Shown piece after piece: positions 11,654-50,067 of a stretch of 64,000 nucleotides of DNA. This stretch comes from Rhodospirillales bacterium 69-11 (GTDB lineage: Bacteria; Pseudomonadota; Alphaproteobacteria; Acetobacterales; Acetobacteraceae): positions 74,712 to 138,711 of the forward strand of contig MKTV01000032.1 in the NCBI GenBank assembly GCA_001898425.1. Direction: 5' to 3'. The position numbers and the translations under genes are program-made. Positions within the stretch are counted from its first letter, which is position 1. Each line of letters starts with the position of its first letter. A model generated the notes under the pieces. That model had not been told where the DNA came from, made no database searches, and saw nothing but the letters and a program-made list of their open reading frames with translations.

Positions 11654-13540
11654 ATGACGAAGGGCCAAACGGGCGCGCGCCGACGCGCCGGCACCGCCGG
11701 GAACAGCGGCGCCATCGGTGGCGATCCCCCGACCGCGCGCGCCGCGCAACTGACCGCCTCGCCCTCCCTGGCCGCCGAACAGGCCATGTCCGGGTCGATG
11801 CCTGAGGAGGCGGGGATTCCGGGGCTGCGGCCGCCGGGGATGCATCCGCCGCGCTTCATGCTTCCGCGCATGCCCCAGCCACGCACCTGGATCATGCTGC
11901 TGCTGCTGGTCGTGGCCGGTGCGCTGATCCTCTATCCGCTCGCTTTCCTCGTCACCGAATCCCTCAACGTCGGTGACCCGCAGGTCTTTCCGCCCGAGGA
12001 GGTCGGCTGGCTCAACTACGCCGACCTGCTCGAAGAGCCGCGCGTCTTGCTGAACACGCTGCTGGTGGCCTGCATCGCCACCGTGCTCGCCGTGCTGTTC
12101 GGCTTCGTCCAGGCCTGGATTCTGACGCGCACCGCCATTCCCGGCCGCGCACGGCTCGAGCGGCTGATGGAGCTCCCCTACTACATGACGCCGCTGATCG
12201 GCGCGCTCGCCTGGGCCGTGCTGCTGGGGCCGAAGACGGGGCTGGTGAACCAGGCCTGGCGGACGCTGGGTTTCGGGAGCGACATGTTCGACGTCTACTC
12301 GCCCTGGGGTATCGCCTGGGTCATGGCGTTGTTCGAAGGCACCGTCGCCTTCGTGATGATCTCCGCGGCGATGAAATCGATGGACCCTTCGCTCGAGGAA
12401 TCCTCTCGCGTGCTGGGCGCGAGCAAGCTGCGCACCGCGCTCAAGGTGACGCTGCCGCTGGTCGCGCCCGGCGTCCTGTCCGCCACGGTCTTCGTCTTCG
12501 CCGAGATGCTGGGATCCTTCGCCGCCGCCTTCGTGCTCGGAATCCCCGGCCGCTACTACGTGATCACGACCGCGATCTGGCAGGCGGCCCTCTCCTACCC
12601 GCCGGACTACGGCCGTGCGGCCGCGATGGGATTGTCGCTGTTCGGCGCCATGGTGATCACACTCGGCATCGCGCGGCTGATCATGCGCAAGGGCAGCTAC
12701 GCCACCATCACCGGCAAGGCGTTCCGCCCCCGCGCGATGGAGGTGGGCGCGCTGCGCTGGCCCCTTCTCGGGATCGCCTGGGGCTACATCATCCTCGCCG
12801 TCATCCTGCCCTTGGGCGCGCTCGCGCTCACCTCGTTCCAGCGCTTCGCGACCGTCATCATCTCACAGATGCAGTTCACGCTGGCCAACTACGAGACCGC
12901 GCTCGCCATGGGCTCGCTCGCCCCCGCCTTTGGCAACTCGCTGCTGCTGGGCATCGTGGTGTCGACGATCGGCGTGCCGGTCATCGGCATCCTCGCCTGG
13001 ATCATCTACCGTGCCCGCCTGCCCGGCGCGGCGGCGATGGAGTTCGTGCTGATGATCCCGCAGGCGGTGCCGCGGCTCGTCTTCGGCCTCGGGTTGCTCT
13101 GGGCGTGGATCAACATCCCGATCCCGATCTACGGCACGCTCTGGCTGCTGGGCATCGCCTACTTCACCGTCTTCATCCCCCTCGGCCTGCGCACCATCGC
13201 GGGCGTCGTGCTGCAGGTGGACCCGAGCCTGGAGGAGTGCGCGCGGGTGTGCGGCGCATCGTGGGGGCATCAGCTGCGCACCGTCACCCTGCCGCTGCTG
13301 CGGCCCGGCCTCGTCGCCGCCTGGCTGCTGATCTTTATCGCTTCCGTCCGCGAACTCGGAGTTTCGATCTTCCTGATGGGCCCGCATTCCAAGGTCGTCG
13401 CACCGGCCATCGTCAATTCGTGGCTGTCCGCCTCCTCCGAACTCTCCGCCGCGATGGCGCTGCTGCAGACGGCGATGGTCTTCGTCGCTGTCGCCATCCT
13501 GTTCCGCGTCGCGCGGCACGTGCGGGGAGCCGAAGCATGA
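11654..13540 (+). CDS. ABC transporter permease, two fused transmembrane domains (iron(III)/FbpB-type)
   Basis: 628-residue inner-membrane permease with two BPD-type transmembrane domains in one chain, as in ferric-iron, thiamine and 2-aminoethylphosphonate importers. EAA-loop signatures occur twice: DPSLEESSRVLGASKLRTAL in the first half, and DPSLEECARVCGASWG in the second. The first helix begins at TWIMLLLLVVAGAL, after about 75 residues of charged, Gly/Pro-rich N-terminus. The ATG at 11654 has aaaggggg upstream; later in-frame ATGs (MSGSMPEE, MHPPRF) could be the real start and would shorten that tail. The stop overlaps the ATPase start. No substrate-binding protein gene is adjacent. Confidence 0.9.
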   Translation: MTKGQTGARRRAGTAGNSGAIGGDPPTARAAQLTASPSLAAEQAMSGSMPEEAGIPGLRPPGMHPPRFMLPRMPQPRTWIMLLLLVVAGALILYPLAFLVTESLNVGDPQVFPPEEVGWLNYADLLEEPRVLLNTLLVACIATVLAVLFGFVQAWILTRTAIPGRARLERLMELPYYMTPLIGALAWAVLLGPKTGLVNQAWRTLGFGSDMFDVYSPWGIAWVMALFEGTVAFVMISAAMKSMDPSLEESSRVLGASKLRTALKVTLPLVAPGVLSATVFVFAEMLGSFAAAFVLGIPGRYYVITTAIWQAALSYPPDYGRAAAMGLSLFGAMVITLGIARLIMRKGSYATITGKAFRPRAMEVGALRWPLLGIAWGYIILAVILPLGALALTSFQRFATVIISQMQFTLANYETALAMGSLAPAFGNSLLLGIVVSTIGVPVIGILAWIIYRARLPGAAAMEFVLMIPQAVPRLVFGLGLLWAWINIPIPIYGTLWLLGIAYFTVFIPLGLRTIAGVVLQVDPSLEECARVCGASWGHQLRTVTLPLLRPGLVAAWLLIFIASVRELGVSIFLMGPHSKVVAPAIVNSWLSASSELSAAMALLQTAMVFVAVAILFRVARHVRGAEA

Positions 13541-14619
13541 GCGGCGCCGCGCCCCGCATCGAAGTCCGGGATCTCGTGCTGCGTTACGGCGATGCGACGG
13601 CCGTCGACGGCATCTCCTTCGCGATCGCCCCTGGGGAGCTGGTCACGCTGCTGGGCCCGTCGGGCTGCGGCAAGACCACCACGCTGCGCTCCATCGCCGG
13701 GCTCGAGACCCCGTCCGCCGGCGCAATCCGGCTGAACGGGGAGACCGTGTGGTCGGCGACCGAACGACGGAACGTGCCGGCCGAGAAGCGCGGCGTGTCG
13801 ATGGTGTTCCAGTCCTATGCGATCTGGCCGCACATGACGGTGGCGGAGAACGTCGCCTACGGGCTTCGCGTGCGGAAGGCCTCGGCGGCCGACATCGCGA
13901 CAAACGTCGCCCGCGTGCTCGACCTCGTGCAGATGCGCCGCTTCGCCGACCGCCCCGCCTCGAAACTCTCGGGCGGGCAGCAGCAGCGCGTGGCCGTCGC
14001 GCGCGCCATCGCCTTCTCTCCAACCGTGCTGCTGTTCGACGAGCCGCTCTCCAACCTCGACGCCAAGCTGCGCGCGGAGATGCGGGTGGAGCTGCGCGAG
14101 CTGCAGCGGCGGCTCGACATCACCTCGGTCTACGTCACGCACGACCAGGAGGAGGCGCTGGCGATCTCCGACCGCGTCATCGTCATGAACCACGGCAAGA
14201 TCGAGCAGATCGGCGCGCCCGAGACGATCTATGCCGCGCCCGCGACCCGCTTCGTCGCGGATTTCGTCGGCGCGGCCAACATGATCGAGGGCGAGGTGAC
14301 CGGGTCCGGTCCCAATGGCACGCTCCGCTTCCAGGCGCGGTCCGGCCTCACGCTCGACGTGGCGGCGGAGGGACGCTCGCAGGGTTCGCTCGTCGCGCTC
14401 CGTTCGTCCTACATCCACCTGGATGCCGGCACGACCGCGCGTGAGAACGGCATCCCCGGCACGATCCACCGGCGCATGTTCCACGGCGATTTCATGCAAT
14501 ACGTGGTGGACTGGCCGGCCGGCCAGCTGATCGTGCGCCGCCCGCCCACGGAACGCCTCGAGGAGGGCAGCGCCGTCACCATCTCCTTCGCGCCGGAGCA
14601 CTGCGTCTTGCTGGAATGA
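13537..14619 (+). CDS. ABC transporter ATP-binding protein (FbpC/PotA type)
   Basis: 360-residue ATPase of the adjacent permease, coupled to it by an ATGA overlap. Walker A is GPSGCGKTT, the signature motif [14 protein letters not shown], Walker B LLFDEPLSNLD, and the switch His is in VTHDQEEALA. The C-terminal 110 residues form the TOBE-like regulatory domain found in iron, spermidine and sugar importers. The Q-loop is in VFQSYAIWPHMT. The next gene, a P450, begins 4 nt after this stop, so transport and oxidation are likely co-expressed. The substrate is unknown; family resemblance alone would suggest ferric iron or a small organic anion. Confidence 0.95.
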   Translation: MSGAAPRIEVRDLVLRYGDATAVDGISFAIAPGELVTLLGPSGCGKTTTLRSIAGLETPSAGAIRLNGETVWSATERRNVPAEKRGVSMVFQSYAIWPHMTVAENVAYGLRVRKASAADIATNVARVLDLVQMRRFADRPASKLSGGQQQRVAVARAIAFSPTVLLFDEPLSNLDAKLRAEMRVELRELQRRLDITSVYVTHDQEEALAISDRVIVMNHGKIEQIGAPETIYAAPATRFVADFVGAANMIEGEVTGSGPNGTLRFQARSGLTLDVAAEGRSQGSLVALRSSYIHLDAGTTARENGIPGTIHRRMFHGDFMQYVVDWPAGQLIVRRPPTERLEEGSAVTISFAPEHCVLLE

Positions 14620-14623
14620 GGCC

Positions 14624-16075
14624 ATGGACCGCGTCGATCCCGCCCCGCGTCTCGTTCCGACCGTCCCAGCGCCGCCCGCTTCGCCGCTGTCGTTCTGGGG
14701 CTATGTGCGCGCCATCCGCACAAATGCGCTGACGATCTGGACCGAACGCGCCTATCAGGAGCCGTTCGAGTGGCGGCGGCTGGTGGGCCGCTCCACGCTC
14801 CTGGTCAACGCGCCGGACGCGATCCATCGCGTGCTGGTCGACAATCCCGGGAACTACCGCCGCTCGCCCGCCTCCATTCGCATCCTCCGCCCCGTGATCG
14901 GCGACGGGCTTCTGCTCGCCGAGGGCGATGCCTGGCGGCACCAGCGCCGCACCATCGCGCCGGCACTCGCGCCCCGCATGATGCCGCTGCTCGCGGGGCA
15001 CGTCGTGGCGACGGCCGCCGATCATCTCGACCGCCTCCCGGTCGACGCACCGGTGGACCTGCTCGCCGCCGTGCAGATGCTGGCGCTCGACATCGCGGGC
15101 CGCTCCATGGTCTCCCTGGAGATGGCCGCGTTCGGCCCCCGGATGCGCGCGCTGATCGCGGAGTTCGCGACCGATCTGTCGCGGCCGCATCTGTTCGACA
15201 TGGTGCTGCCGGCCGCCGTGCCGACATGGCGCGACCTGCGCCGCCGCCGCTTCAGCGCGCGATGGATGCGACTGATCGAGGAGATCGTCGATGCGCGGCT
15301 GTCGCGGCCGCCGCAACCCGAGGACGCCCCGCGGGACCTGTTCGACCTGCTCCGCGCCGCGCGGGACCCGGAGACCGGCGCGGCGTTCGACCGCATCGCA
15401 CTACGCGACCGGGTCGCGACCATGATCCTGGCCGGCCACGAGACCACGGCCGTCACGCTGTTCTGGGCCTTGCTGCTGCTGGCCGATGCGCCGCATGAGC
15501 AGGCCCGCGTCGCGGCGGAGGCGCGCGAGATTGGATCCCAAGCGACGGAGGCGCGCGCGGTTGGATCCCAAGCGACGGAGACGCGCGCGGGCGGATCCCA
15601 AGCGGCGGACGCGCGCGCGGGCGGCCTCGACGCTGCCGCGGTGCCGCGGCTCGTGCGCACGCGCGCCGTGGTGCAGGAAACCCTCCGCCTCTTTCCACCT
15701 GCCTTCGCCCTGGTGCGGGAGGCGATCGGCCCCGACCGCCTCTGCGACATGGACGTGCCGAAGGGCACGGTCGTGATGATCGCTCCCTGGGTGTTGCACC
15801 GCCACGCGCGGTTCTGGCGCGATCCGGCCGTCTTCGACCCTGATCGGTTCATGCCCGACGCGCCGCCGCCGCCGCGGCATGCCTGGTTGCCGTTCGGCAC
15901 GGGCCCGCGCGTCTGCGTCGGCGCGCAGTTCGCGCTCACGGAGGCGACGCTCGCGCTCGCGATGCTGCTCGCGCGGTATGAGGTGGGTCGACTCGACTCC
16001 GACCCCGTGCTCCCATCCGGGATCGTCACGCTGATCCCGACACGCGCGCCGGCCTTCCGCCTGCGGCGGCGCTGA
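14624..16075 (+). CDS. Cytochrome P450 with an in-frame decapeptide repeat
   Basis: 483-residue soluble P450 monooxygenase. The I-helix oxygen-activation motif AGHETT is at 270-275, the K-helix ETLR at 352-355, and the haem-binding FGTGPRVCVG at 424-433 with C431 as iron ligand. It resembles the CYP102/CYP4-like bacterial class with long helices. Between the I and K helices, residues 301-334 contain a tandem decapeptide (GSQATEARAV, GSQATETRAG, GSQAADARAG) encoded by a 30-bp DNA repeat; this is not a normal P450 element. The gene starts 4 nt after the ABC ATPase stop. No ferredoxin or reductase partner is nearby. Confidence 0.93.
   Translation: MDRVDPAPRLVPTVPAPPASPLSFWGYVRAIRTNALTIWTERAYQEPFEWRRLVGRSTLLVNAPDAIHRVLVDNPGNYRRSPASIRILRPVIGDGLLLAEGDAWRHQRRTIAPALAPRMMPLLAGHVVATAADHLDRLPVDAPVDLLAAVQMLALDIAGRSMVSLEMAAFGPRMRALIAEFATDLSRPHLFDMVLPAAVPTWRDLRRRRFSARWMRLIEEIVDARLSRPPQPEDAPRDLFDLLRAARDPETGAAFDRIALRDRVATMILAGHETTAVTLFWALLLLADAPHEQARVAAEAREIGSQATEARAVGSQATETRAGGSQAADARAGGLDAAAVPRLVRTRAVVQETLRLFPPAFALVREAIGPDRLCDMDVPKGTVVMIAPWVLHRHARFWRDPAVFDPDRFMPDAPPPPRHAWLPFGTGPRVCVGAQFALTEATLALAMLLARYEVGRLDSDPVLPSGIVTLIPTRAPAFRLRRR
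15512..15631 (+). repeat. 30-bp tandem repeat inside the P450 gene
   Basis: Units at 15512-15541, 15542-15571, 15572-15601 and a partial one at 15602-15631. Each full unit ends with the core ggatcccaa and contains a gcgcgc run. The length is a multiple of three, so the frame is kept and the array codes for 10-residue repeats. The first unit merges into an ordinary VAAEAR-type P450 sequence, suggesting local duplication. Confidence 0.85.
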
Positions 16076-16169
16076 CCAGCTCTCATCACCTGAACGTGTG
16101 TGGCCGGCACCGTTGCGCTCACGCACGGTCGCCTCACACCAGGGAACTCCCAGGGACCGATCTCGCCTC

Positions 16170-18902
16170 ATGCCCACGGCCCTCCCGTCCGCTCCACGCC
16201 CGGCGCTGCTCTCCTCGGTGCGCGGGCTGCTGGTCGCGCTCGCCTGCGCGATCGGGGGACCGTTGTTCGTGTTCTCGCTGATCAGCCTGCGGGATGCGTA
16301 TGACACCGCGGACGAGCGGCAGCGCACCGACCTGCTGAGCCGCGCCCAGGCTGCCGCCGCCACGCTCGACATGCAGTTCCAGAACGCCTTCGCCACCCTT
16401 CGCGTGCTTGCCGCGTCGCGCGCCCTGCAGAGCGGCGACCTGGACGCGTTCGACCACGAGATGCGGGATGCCGCCGCCGCCCTGGACGGCCCGTTGATCA
16501 ACCTTGTCTCGGCCGATGGCGAGACGGTCCTCACCACGTTCTGGGCGCCCGGCGACCGGCATCTCGGCGTCCGAGCGTCCGCGTTCGTGCTGAACGCACT
16601 GGCCCAGAACCGCACGGCCATCTCCGACCTCGTGATCGGCTCCCAGACCAGGCGCGCCCAGGTCGGGGTCGTGCTGCCCGTCCCCGATCCGCAGACCGGC
16701 AAGCCGCGCTGGATGCTCAGCCTGTATCTGCCCCTCGGGCTGCTCGCCGGCGATCTGGAGGCGCTGCACCTCCCGCCCGATTGGCTCGCCTCCATCCTCG
16801 ACAGCCAAGGCCGGTCGGTCGCCCGCCGCGTCGATGCGGACACCTATCGCGGACGCTCGGTTCCGGCCGACCTGCTGCAGGCGATCAACGAACAGCCCGT
16901 CGGCATCATGGGCGGCGACCACGTGGCGATGGACGGCCGGCAGATGACCACCGCCTATGCCCGCGCGCCGGAGAGCGGCTACGTCGTCACGATCGGCATC
17001 CCCAGTGCGGTGCTCGCGCAGCCCTTGAAGGAGAAGCTGCGGGAAGCGGGATTGATCGGCGGCGTCCTGCTCGCGCTCAGCATCGTCCTCGCGCTGCTGC
17101 TGTCGCGGCGGATCATCCGCGGCCTGGACGAGGTGGCGGCGCACCCCAGCGCCCCGCGCCGCACCGGCCTCGTCGAGATCGATCGGCTCGGGACCGCACT
17201 CGCCGAGGCCGAACGCGAACGCGGGCGCGCCGCCGAGGAGTTCCGGACCCTGGCCGACACGCTGCCGGGCTGGATGTTCGTGGCGGATGAGGACGGACGG
17301 AACGTCTTCGTCAACCAGACCTTCGCCGAACAGGTCGGCCGCACCGCCGAGTCCCTGATGGGCACCGGCTGGCTCGACGTGATCCATCCCGACGACCGCG
17401 CCGGCGCCGCGGCGTCCTGGCGCGTGGCGACCCTGGCCGGGACGGATTACGTGGCGGAGTATCGAGCCCGGATGCGCGACGGTACGCATCGCTGGTTCCT
17501 CTGCCGGGGCCGCCCGGTGAAGACCTCCACGGGCATGCCCATCCGCTGGTTCGGCGTCGCGGTGGACATCCAGGACCGCAAATCCGCCGAAGCGGCACTG
17601 CGGGAGGCCGAACAGCGCCTGCGGGCGCTCAACCTGGATCTGGAGACCCGGGTCGAGCGGGAAGCGGCGGCACGAGAGGCCGCGATGGCGCGGGCCGCGC
17701 ACGGCGAACGGATGCAGGCGCTGGGCCAGCTCGCCGGCGGCATCGCGCACGACTTCAACAACGTGCTGCAGGCCGTCCAGGGCGGGGCGGCGCTGATCCG
17801 CCAGCGCGTCGGAGACCCGCCGTCGATCGAGCGGCTCGCCCGCATGGTCGAGGATGCCGCGATCCGGGGCGCGACCGTGACGCGGCGCCTGCTCTCCTTC
17901 GCCCGCCGGGGCGAGCTGCGCGCCGAACCGGTCGACCTCGCGCGGCTCCTGCAGGAGATGCAGGAGGTGCTGGCACCGGCGCTTGGCGCGCAGATCCGCC
18001 TGCACATCGACGCCCCTGACGGACTGCCGCCCGCCCTGGTCGACAAGGGGCAGGTCGAGACGGTGCTGGTGAACCTTGCCACGAATGCGCGCGACGCGAT
18101 GCCCGAGGGCGGCGACCTCACCCTAAGCTTGGCGCATGACGTGATCGCGCCGGAGGCGGCCACGAGCGAGCTGGGGCCTGGCCAGTATCTGCGGCTGACC
18201 GTCGCGGATACCGGCCACGGCATGGACCCTGCGACCCGCGCTCGGGCGCTGGAGCCGTTCTTCACCACCAAGCCGCAGGGCAAGGGCACGGGTCTCGGCC
18301 TGTCGATGGCCAAGGGCTTTGCCGAGCAATCCGGCGGCGCCCTCGCGCTTTCGAGCACGCCAGCTTGCGGCACCACCGTGGAGCTGTGGCTGCCGCAAGC
18401 GGGGACGGAGCCGGCGGCGTCCCCGCAGACGGATCGGCCGCTTCCCATCCCGGCATCGCGGCGGCGGGTCCTGCTCGTCGACGACGAGGCCATCGTGCTC
18501 GAAACCCTGGCGACCGGCCTGAGCGATCTCGGCTTCGCGGTCGCGGTCGCGGCCAATGGTGCGGAGGCGCTTGCCCTGATCGAGTCGGGCGAGCCGCTCG
18601 ATGCGCTGGTCACCGACCTCACCATGCCGGGGATGTCCGGCCTCGCCCTGATCCGGGAGGCGCAGGATCGTCGCCCGAACCTGCCCGCCATCCTGCTGAC
18701 CGGCTATGCGACCGACGCGGCGCAATTCCTGGTCGGTGGCGCGGTCGCGGGGCGGTTCTCGCTGCTGCGCAAGCCGGTGCTTGCGACCGAACTGGTGGAG
18801 CGGCTCGAGACCATGATGGGCCTTCCCCCGGCGGCGGGTCAGGGCGCCGGAGCGTTCGGGATCCCGCGCGGCACGCCGCAAGTGGCAGCCGACCCCTCCT
18901 GA
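16170..18902 (+). CDS. Membrane-bound hybrid sensor histidine kinase (PAS-HisKA-HATPase-REC)
   Basis: 910-residue hybrid kinase. A first transmembrane helix (about 18-40) and a second (about 294-315) flank an extracytoplasmic sensor domain. A PAS domain follows (about 356-480, LPGWMFVADEDG and VIHPDDR), then HisKA with the phospho-acceptor H527 in GGIAHDFNNVLQ. ATPase boxes are N (NLATNARDAMPEGG), G1 (DTGHGMD) and G2 (GKGTGLGLSMAKG). The C-terminal receiver has the acidic pair in LLVDDEAIV and phospho-acceptor D816 in VTDLTMPG. The start is ATG 16170; a GTG at 16098 would add 24 residues. No response regulator or target gene is adjacent, so the signal and output are unknown. Confidence 0.93.
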   Translation: MPTALPSAPRPALLSSVRGLLVALACAIGGPLFVFSLISLRDAYDTADERQRTDLLSRAQAAAATLDMQFQNAFATLRVLAASRALQSGDLDAFDHEMRDAAAALDGPLINLVSADGETVLTTFWAPGDRHLGVRASAFVLNALAQNRTAISDLVIGSQTRRAQVGVVLPVPDPQTGKPRWMLSLYLPLGLLAGDLEALHLPPDWLASILDSQGRSVARRVDADTYRGRSVPADLLQAINEQPVGIMGGDHVAMDGRQMTTAYARAPESGYVVTIGIPSAVLAQPLKEKLREAGLIGGVLLALSIVLALLLSRRIIRGLDEVAAHPSAPRRTGLVEIDRLGTALAEAERERGRAAEEFRTLADTLPGWMFVADEDGRNVFVNQTFAEQVGRTAESLMGTGWLDVIHPDDRAGAAASWRVATLAGTDYVAEYRARMRDGTHRWFLCRGRPVKTSTGMPIRWFGVAVDIQDRKSAEAALREAEQRLRALNLDLETRVEREAAAREAAMARAAHGERMQALGQLAGGIAHDFNNVLQAVQGGAALIRQRVGDPPSIERLARMVEDAAIRGATVTRRLLSFARRGELRAEPVDLARLLQEMQEVLAPALGAQIRLHIDAPDGLPPALVDKGQVETVLVNLATNARDAMPEGGDLTLSLAHDVIAPEAATSELGPGQYLRLTVADTGHGMDPATRARALEPFFTTKPQGKGTGLGLSMAKGFAEQSGGALALSSTPACGTTVELWLPQAGTEPAASPQTDRPLPIPASRRRVLLVDDEAIVLETLATGLSDLGFAVAVAANGAEALALIESGEPLDALVTDLTMPGMSGLALIREAQDRRPNLPAILLTGYATDAAQFLVGGAVAGRFSLLRKPVLATELVERLETMMGLPPAAGQGAGAFGIPRGTPQVAADPS

Positions 18903-19041
18903 ACGCCTGGTTGCGGGTTCCGCTGGACGCCGGCCGCGAGTTGCCCATACGCTGACGGGACGTCAGGCGGACCCGCTGCCTTCTCCGAACCGGGCTCAGC
19001 TTGCCATTACGATAACAATATAAAAAGCCGGAGGAAACACC

Positions 19042-19620
19042 ATGCCGCAGAACGGCCCCGTTACCCCCACCGGACTCAATCATCTCGTGCTGAACGTGCG
19101 CGACCTCGAGGAGTCGCACCGGTTCTGGACCGAGATCATCGGCTTCAAGCAGGTCGGGGAACTCAAGAAGTCGCCCACCCGGCCGAACCCGCCGAAGATG
19201 CGCTTCTACAGTGCCGATCATGGCGGCAAGCTCAACCACCACGACATCGCGCTGGTGGAGAACAAGGAGCTGCCCGAACCGCCCAAGGAATGGGGCATGT
19301 TCGGCATGCCGGTAGCGGTGAATCACATCGCGATCACGCTGCCGGACCGGGACGCCTGGCTGCGGCAGCTCGAATACCTTCAGCAGCGCGGCGTGAAGTT
19401 CAACCGCCGCGTCGAGCATGGCATGACGCACAGCCTCTACATCAACGACCCGAACGGCTACGGGGTCGAGCTGCTGTACGAACTGCCGCGGGACGTGTGG
19501 GAAGGCGACATCGATGCGGCCCTGAACTACGCGGTTGCCCGCCCGACCGAGGGCGATGCCGCGCTGCACGACGACCAGGATGTGCCGGTGTTCCGCGCCG
19601 GCCAGCCGGCCACCGCCTGA
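19042..19620 (+). CDS. VOC-family protein (glyoxalase/extradiol-dioxygenase fold)
   Basis: 192-residue protein of the vicinal-oxygen-chelate superfamily, first gene of a four-gene catabolic operon. Two beta-alpha-beta-beta-beta halves are visible, beginning at GLNHLVLNVRD and AVNHIAITLPD. Candidate metal ligands are those two His, His in the GGKLNHHDIAL strand and the Glu in YGVELLYELPRD. That layout is typical of type I extradiol dioxygenases and 2,3-dihydroxybiphenyl-dioxygenase-like enzymes. The ATG at 19042 has ggagg 8 nt upstream. An AT-rich stretch (19003-19026) just before it probably contains the operon promoter. Confidence 0.9.
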   Translation: MPQNGPVTPTGLNHLVLNVRDLEESHRFWTEIIGFKQVGELKKSPTRPNPPKMRFYSADHGGKLNHHDIALVENKELPEPPKEWGMFGMPVAVNHIAITLPDRDAWLRQLEYLQQRGVKFNRRVEHGMTHSLYINDPNGYGVELLYELPRDVWEGDIDAALNYAVARPTEGDAALHDDQDVPVFRAGQPATA

Positions 19621-32997: not shown

Positions 32998-33061
32998 GTC
33001 GCCTTTCCACGACCCAAGGCACGTCGCCTCTCCACGGCCCAAGGTACGTCGCCGTTCCAAG
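32998..33061. repeat. 25-bp tandem repeat, about 2.5 copies
   Basis: Units 32998-33022, 33023-33047 and the partial 33048-33061, each starting gtcgcc and containing ccacg-cccaagg. Units differ at three positions. It sits in the spacer after the kdgK stop on the minus strand (convergent with uppP). Confidence 0.8.
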
Positions 33062-46190: not shown

Positions 46191-46199
46191 CTGAAAACG

Positions 46200-46283
46200 G
46201 CGACGCCTGGGTTGGACGCGGCGACGCCGGGATTGGAGGCCGCGACGTCGGGACGGGATGCGGCGACGCCGGGACTGGGCGCC
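46200..46283. repeat. 21-bp tandem repeat, four copies
   Basis: Units at 46200-46220, 46221-46241, 46242-46262 and 46263-46283. All start gcgacg; later positions vary. The array is between the REP palindrome and the proS stop, within the likely proS-lolC transcript. On the plus strand it would encode AATPGLE-type heptapeptides, but no gene is evident there. Confidence 0.8.
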
Positions 46284-48361: not shown

Positions 48362-48420
48362 CGGCCTTGGGTCCCGCAAACGCGGGCGGCTTACACCCGA
48401 TCCCGCAGACGGGGCGCGGC

Positions 48421-50067
48421 TTACACCCGGAGCAGGTGCACGTCCACCAACGGCCGCTTCTGCAGGCGCCGCCCCAGCGCGCGCCGCAACGCCGCCCGCG
48501 CGGCGTCGGCGAGCGCGGCGTCGTCGCGGCGGAGCGGGGCCGGCAGGTCGGCCAGCGCATCGGCGAACTCGTTCACCACGCGGTCGGTCTCGGAATCCTC
48601 GGGCTCGAACAGGCCAGGTGCGCTGACGCGCGGCCGCCCCAACAGGCGCCCGCTCTCGTCGACCGCCAGGCTGCCGACCACCACGCCGTTGAACAGCATG
48701 CGCCGGCGCGCGGCCATGACCTCGCCCTTCAGCGGCACCAGCCGTGCGCCGTCCAGCACCAGCCGGCCCACCGGGGCGCTGTCGGTGATCTCCGGCCGAT
48801 TGCCCGAGAGACTCAGCACGTCGCCGTCCTCCAGCAGGAAGGGCGTCGCCCCCGCCTCCTGCGCGAGCGCGGCATGGGCGGACAGGTGGCGCCACTCCCC
48901 ATGCACCGGCACGGCGTAGCGGGGCCGCACCAGCTTGTACAACCGACGGAGCTCGTCCCGCGCCGGATGGCCGGAGACGTGGACCAGGTGGTCCTGGTCG
49001 GTCATCAGGTGCACGCCGCGGCGCACCAGGTTGTCCTGCACCGTGCCGATCGCCCGCTCGTTGCCGGGGATCATGCGGGAGGAGAAGATCACCGTGTCCC
49101 CCTCGCCCAGCGAGACGCGCGGGTGGTTATCCTGCGCGATGCGCGACAGCGCGCTCCGCGGCTCCCCCTGGCTGCCGGTGACCAGGATCAGGATGTTGTC
49201 GTCGGGGACGTCGTCGATGTCGTCCTCGCCCAGAAAGGGCGGCAGGCCCTTCAGGTAGCCGCATTCGCGCGCCGCCGCATCCATGTTGCGCAGCGAGCGG
49301 CCGACGAGCGCCGTGCTGCGCCCCGCCGCGCGGGCGGCAAGCGCGATCGTCTCGATGCGGGCAACGTTGGAGGCGAAGCAGGTCACCGCGACCCGGCCGC
49401 GCAGGTCGCGGATGAGCGCGGTCAGGCTCTGGCGCACCTCCGCCTCGCTGCCCGAATGCCCCTCCACCATGGCATTCGTCGAGTCGCAGATCATGGCGAG
49501 GACGCCGCGGTCGCCGAGTTCCGCCAGCGTCGCCTCGTCGGTGGGCGGCCCGATCAGCGGCTCCGGATCCAGCTTCCAGTCACCGGTGTGCAGCAGCAGA
49601 CCCGCCGGCGTGTCGATCACCAGCGCCTGGGCCTCGGGGATCGAGTGGGCCAGGCGGATGAAGCGGAGCTTGAAGGGCGCGAGGTCGATCGTGCCGCCGG
49701 GCGGGACGACGTTGACCCGCACCTGGTTCACGAGGCCGGCCTCCCCCAGCTTGCGGCGCAGCACCGCGGCGGCGAAGGGCGTGGCGTACACCGGGCAGCG
49801 CAGCGACGGCCAGAGGTGCGCGACGGCACCGATATGATCCTCGTGCGCATGGGTGATGACGAGGCCGAGCAACTGCTCCCGGCGATCGGCGATGAACGCC
49901 GGATCGGGCAGCATGATGTCGGCCTCCGGATACTCCGTGCCCCCGAAGCCGATGCCGCAATCCACGGCAAGCCATCGTCCGCCGCAGCGGTACAGGTTGA
50001 GGTTCATGCCAATCTCGCCCGTCCCGCCCAAGGGCAGGAAGGCCAAGTCGCCGGTTGCCGCGTCCAT
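48421..50067 (-). CDS. rnj: Ribonuclease J
   Basis: 548-residue metallo-beta-lactamase/beta-CASP RNase that carries out 5-prime to 3-prime RNA decay and rRNA maturation. The zinc-binding HAHEDH is at 73-78, with further His in HTGDWKLD and DSTNAMVEGHSGSE. The beta-CASP motifs include TCFASNVARIE and VTGSQGEPRSAL, and the late His are in MTDQDHLVHVSGHPARDE and PVHGEWRHL. The ATG at 50067 begins MDAATGDLAFLPLGGTGEIG. Length matches alphaproteobacterial RNase J. Confidence 0.97.
   Translation of the reverse strand: MDAATGDLAFLPLGGTGEIGMNLNLYRCGGRWLAVDCGIGFGGTEYPEADIMLPDPAFIADRREQLLGLVITHAHEDHIGAVAHLWPSLRCPVYATPFAAAVLRRKLGEAGLVNQVRVNVVPPGGTIDLAPFKLRFIRLAHSIPEAQALVIDTPAGLLLHTGDWKLDPEPLIGPPTDEATLAELGDRGVLAMICDSTNAMVEGHSGSEAEVRQSLTALIRDLRGRVAVTCFASNVARIETIALAARAAGRSTALVGRSLRNMDAAARECGYLKGLPPFLGEDDIDDVPDDNILILVTGSQGEPRSALSRIAQDNHPRVSLGEGDTVIFSSRMIPGNERAIGTVQDNLVRRGVHLMTDQDHLVHVSGHPARDELRRLYKLVRPRYAVPVHGEWRHLSAHAALAQEAGATPFLLEDGDVLSLSGNRPEITDSAPVGRLVLDGARLVPLKGEVMAARRRMLFNGVVVGSLAVDESGRLLGRPRVSAPGLFEPEDSETDRVVNEFADALADLPAPLRRDDAALADAARAALRRALGRRLQKRPLVDVHLLRV

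Follow-up and report, generated by a model that had tools for sequence, protein, structure and literature searches.

A tandem duplication of a native segment as the probable source of an in-frame 30-bp repeat in a bacterial cytochrome P450 gene

A cytochrome P450 gene of Rhodospirillales bacterium 69-11 carries four successive copies of a ten-codon segment, an array very probably produced when a native segment was duplicated in tandem in this lineage alone, the extra copies being tolerated as a surface spacer with the P450 core intact. The gene lies in a 64,000-nucleotide stretch of DNA, referred to here as the window, from the first nucleotide of which all positions are counted. The duplication appears to be of the slippage type and, although real, is fairly ordinary, in an otherwise intact-looking gene. 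Its value lies in the clean before-and-after pair formed with the orthologue of a sister species, one unit against four, in which a compact enzyme seems to have taken up extra tandem copies at what is proposed to be a contact for the redox partner. Were the copy number to prove variable and functional, the array would offer an easy, naturally occurring means of acting on electron transfer in P450s.

Table 1. Positions in the window of the P450 gene, its repeat units and the adjacent helices.
Feature	Residues	Positions	Strand	Basis and remarks
Cytochrome P450 gene	483 aa	14624..16075	+	PF00067; closest solved structure CYP184A1 (7wzl/7wzm)
Helix I, AGHETT at 270-275	257-287	15392..15484	+	AlphaFold2 model; alignment
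Helix J, predicted, repeat-lengthened	290-318	15491..15577	+	AlphaFold2 models
Repeat unit 1, EAREIGSQAT	299-308	15518..15547	+	Left part matches the sister's native junction VAAEARAIG; TRF, alignment
Repeat unit 2, EARAVGSQAT	309-318	15548..15577	+	TRF, protein register
Repeat unit 3, ETRAGGSQAA	319-328	15578..15607	+	TRF, protein register
Repeat unit 4, DARAGGLDAA, degenerate	329-338	15608..15637	+	Right part matches the sister's native junction DATAVPRL; TRF ends at 15620
Helix K, ExxR at 352-355	344-356	15653..15691	+	AlphaFold2 model; alignment

The P450 gene and its repeat array

The open reading frame is uninterrupted, with the array in frame inside it. The encoded protein matches the Pfam profile PF00067 with an E-value of 8.6e-58 and 196.6 bits, against a cut-off of 22.8, and its AlphaFold2 model (mean pLDDT 78, pTM 0.83) has the P450 fold; all 50 Foldseek matches listed with that model as the query are P450s. 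The closest solved P450 by sequence and, among the matches listed, by fold is CYP184A1. Alignment revealed that the P450 motifs are whole on both sides of the array, comprising AGHETT, the ExxR motif (present as ETLR) and FGTGPRVC with the haem-binding cysteine at residue 431, in keeping with what an earlier, sequence-only reading had stated of the flanking motifs. Judged by profile and modelled fold, the gene is a member of the cytochrome P450 superfamily, with a putative monooxygenase activity. A domain scan of four neighbouring proteins revealed no redox-partner domain.

Tandem Repeats Finder (TRF) delimits the 30-bp array at 15512-15620, with 3.6 copies, 88% matches and no indels; its score of 162 is above that of every other array in the window. 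When read in protein register, the array resolves into four units that span residues 299-338. Shuffling of the P450 gene gave maximal scores of 88 in 300 dinucleotide shuffles and 77 in 300 codon shuffles. The sequence-only reading had reported a 30-bp in-frame tandem repeat between the I and K helices, and these values bear it out: this is an in-frame coding tandem repeat, beyond chance, with a unit length that is a multiple of three. Units 1-3 are identical to one another at 24-28 of 30 bases, whereas unit 4 is identical to them at only 17-21 of 30. The palindromic core that had been described for the unit is present in part, since GGATCC is a perfect palindrome of 6 bp and is flanked by 4-bp TTGG and CCAA arms, but copy 3 is without the TTGG arm. 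Single-strand folding of the array was not unusual on either strand compared to shuffled sequences (z = +0.44 and +1.45), and hairpin-driven instability is unsupported, given that the array folds no better than shuffles.

Origin and distribution of the copies

The closest orthologue, at locus L039 of a Rhodospirillales metagenome-assembled genome, encodes a protein of 83% identity (its sequence is identical to that of L010, from genome G030) and is syntenic, with positions 11866-15554 of the window aligning to the sister at 85.6% DNA identity and positions 15602-19128 at 75%. The two proteins cluster with a support of 1.0 in a tree made without the loop. Where the sister reads VAAEARAIGTDATAVPRL, the window equivalent is VAAEAREIG[...]GLDAAAVPRL; a single unit, EARAIGTDAT, therefore stands in the sister against four in the window, and the sister is shorter by exactly 30 residues at the array. 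Since one homologous unit stands at the equivalent place in the sister, the array would be a duplicated local segment, and by this alignment it is to be classed as one. The decapeptides, which had been described as inserted, are therefore real copies but not foreign ones, being copies of a native segment that is single in the sister.

The array is absent from all 57 distinct relatives examined; a search for the same repeats at fixed number in distant genera, which the sequence-only reading had named as evidence against its proposal, accordingly found none. A tandem duplication on the branch leading to the window gene would be the simplest account of a single-copy sister and array-free relatives. 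After the split from the sister species, a native 30-bp segment coding for the last part of helix J and the beginning of the J-J' loop would have expanded to four tandem copies, likely by replication slippage or unequal recombination. The additional 30 residues would make helix J longer and contribute a flexible spacer while leaving the P450 core unbroken, because the unit is of ten codons and the loop is at the protein surface. The expansion was probably near-neutral.

Comparison with the sister gave a dN/dS of 0.113/0.553 (∼0.20) before the array and 0.083/0.746 (∼0.11) after it, values that are typical of a constrained gene and that point to purifying selection on both flanks, although they average over the whole time since the sister split and do not in themselves show function after the expansion. 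Between units 1-3, non-synonymous changes number 2-5 per pair and synonymous ones 0-1, with a sum over the three pairs of 10 versus 2; small as these numbers are, they approximate what unconstrained change would give, and would fit a weakly constrained spacer.

Within the organism's own 6.5-Mb genome, no exact or one-mismatch copy of a 17-mer unit core was found outside the P450 gene, and five two-mismatch matches were found elsewhere, as against one with a reversed-pattern control. A search of 298 further genomes from the family yielded only isolated, imperfect matches and no repeated occurrence. The repeat region had no DNA match on plasmids, and plasmid-borne relatives of the P450 are at most ∼50% identical. 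A match to the Pfam Decapeptide repeat region (PF25296) was discounted, its 21.6 bits being below the curated cut-off of 45 and similar weak matches occurring in unrelated control genomes, and nothing specific on decapeptide repeats was found in the literature.

A repeat census on 464 kb sampled from this genome revealed many tandem arrays with equal or higher scores, so the P450 array is not exceptional for its genome; a GC3 test places most of these arrays outside coding-like ORFs, and arrays that lie in frame within a well-defined enzyme are less common in the sample. The strongest (L091:11463-11672, contig C52) has a 53-bp unit in four nearly perfect copies outside coding-like ORFs. A CGCCGGCCATGACACGG-like motif is common to arrays at several sites in the genome, the periods of which are in some cases not divisible by three, including three arrays on contig C45 (L075:10901-11012, L076:11726-11949 and L080:15359-15534). 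The window itself contains a 21-bp repeat at 46198-46282 (four copies, 79% matches), where the ORFs that it overlaps, on both strands, are not clearly coding, and arrays of 30 bp x 2.0 at 48372-48429 and 25 bp x 2.5 at 32998-33059.

Structural setting and alternative explanations

The J/J' region of P450s has been described as reductase interaction site 1 (RIS1), a proposed reductase contact of 'strongly' variable length, with class I enzymes having 3-5 residues there, class II enzymes 21-22, and 0.5% of entries more than 35 (PMC3224734); an insertion at the site of the array is thus not forbidden. The distance from AGHETT to ExxR-P is 89 residues in the window protein compared to 46-63 (most often 63) in the 57 relatives, and the window's J/J' length falls in the rare tail. 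The suggestion that P450s rarely tolerate insertions here is contradicted by this variability. AlphaFold2 places helix J of the sister at residues 292-305, J' at 309-314 and K at 316-328 (sister numbering). Modelling of the window loop, as the sequence-only reading had proposed together with the orthologue alignment described above, gave a longer helix J, a stretch of low confidence at residues 317-332 (pLDDT < 50) and J' at 337-342, with the fold kept. Tentatively, helix J may be extended and followed by a disordered loop with the core intact; the extension is tentative because only 11 sequences went into the alignment behind the models.

The J/J' region is ∼16 residues shorter in related P450s of one genus (L013, L032, L024, L026, L023 and L036), which is again indicative of length tolerance. 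The shortened region reaches a class-I-like length, and in the family the length of RIS1 may not follow the redox class. With the exception of L013, the placement of which is weakly supported, the short-loop proteins form a clade in the tree, and it is therefore unsure whether there were one or two loop losses.

The array lies at the proposed interaction site (PMC3224734) and could conceivably serve to tune function, with slippage altering copy number between strains and thereby redox-partner docking or P450 activity. The unit length preserves the frame, and the inner copies are nearly identical, such that slippage could still take place. However, the copies have already diverged, to the extent that unit 4 is degenerate, the differences between them are mostly non-synonymous, and other species manage without the array, all of which renders this reading very unlikely. 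The more specific proposal of slippage-tunable length control of the redox-partner contact, with copy number setting the choice of electron-transfer partner or the rate of transfer, is highly improbable. Most likely, the array acts as a passive spacer; any influence on the docking of redox partners would be modest at most, and would arise because the J/J' region is the proposed reductase contact.

An error of assembly, in the array itself or in its copy number, has to be considered given that the source is a draft genome of 124 contigs, that tandem repeats are a known cause of assembly errors (PMC6868369), and that the copy number is known from a single strain. Such an error is nonetheless very unlikely, since the copies are distinguishable from each other, the array is ∼120 bp and so shorter than a typical read, the reading frame is preserved, and the outer units join native sequence at both ends. 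The short, partly palindromic GGATCC core and the in-frame position within a gene might suggest that a mobile or palindromic coding element (RPE or PARCEL type) has been inserted. Yet the unit is confined to the P450 gene in its own genome, does not recur in relatives, has its homologue in the one native copy of the sister and does not fold unusually on either strand, and this origin is scarcely credible. Indeed, dispersed elements of this type occupy several sites, whereas the present unit is unique to one gene.

Comparison with known systems

CYP184A1 of Streptomyces avermitilis shares 28% identity with the window P450 in the fold alignment and is without the repeats. The RIS1 length variation described for P450s (PMC3224734) concerns the same structural position as the array, and occurs among P450 classes as well as among the relatives of the window gene; the window region differs in being far longer than that of its relatives, and in that the extra length is recognisable as a recent tandem duplication. 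The array resembles the palindromic amphipathic coding repeats known as PARCEL (PMC2996958) in being a tandem repeat of coding sequence that has a degree of dyad symmetry, but PARCEL units are 25 residues long and dispersed across genomes and taxa, as opposed to a 10-residue unit in one gene. Bacterial satellites predominantly have units with a length that is a multiple of three, which has been read as coding (PMC6749651), and the array is similar to such in-gene minisatellites in its multiple-of-three unit, its position within a gene and the uniqueness of the unit to its locus. It differs in being accommodated in a compact enzyme fold rather than in a surface or repeat protein.
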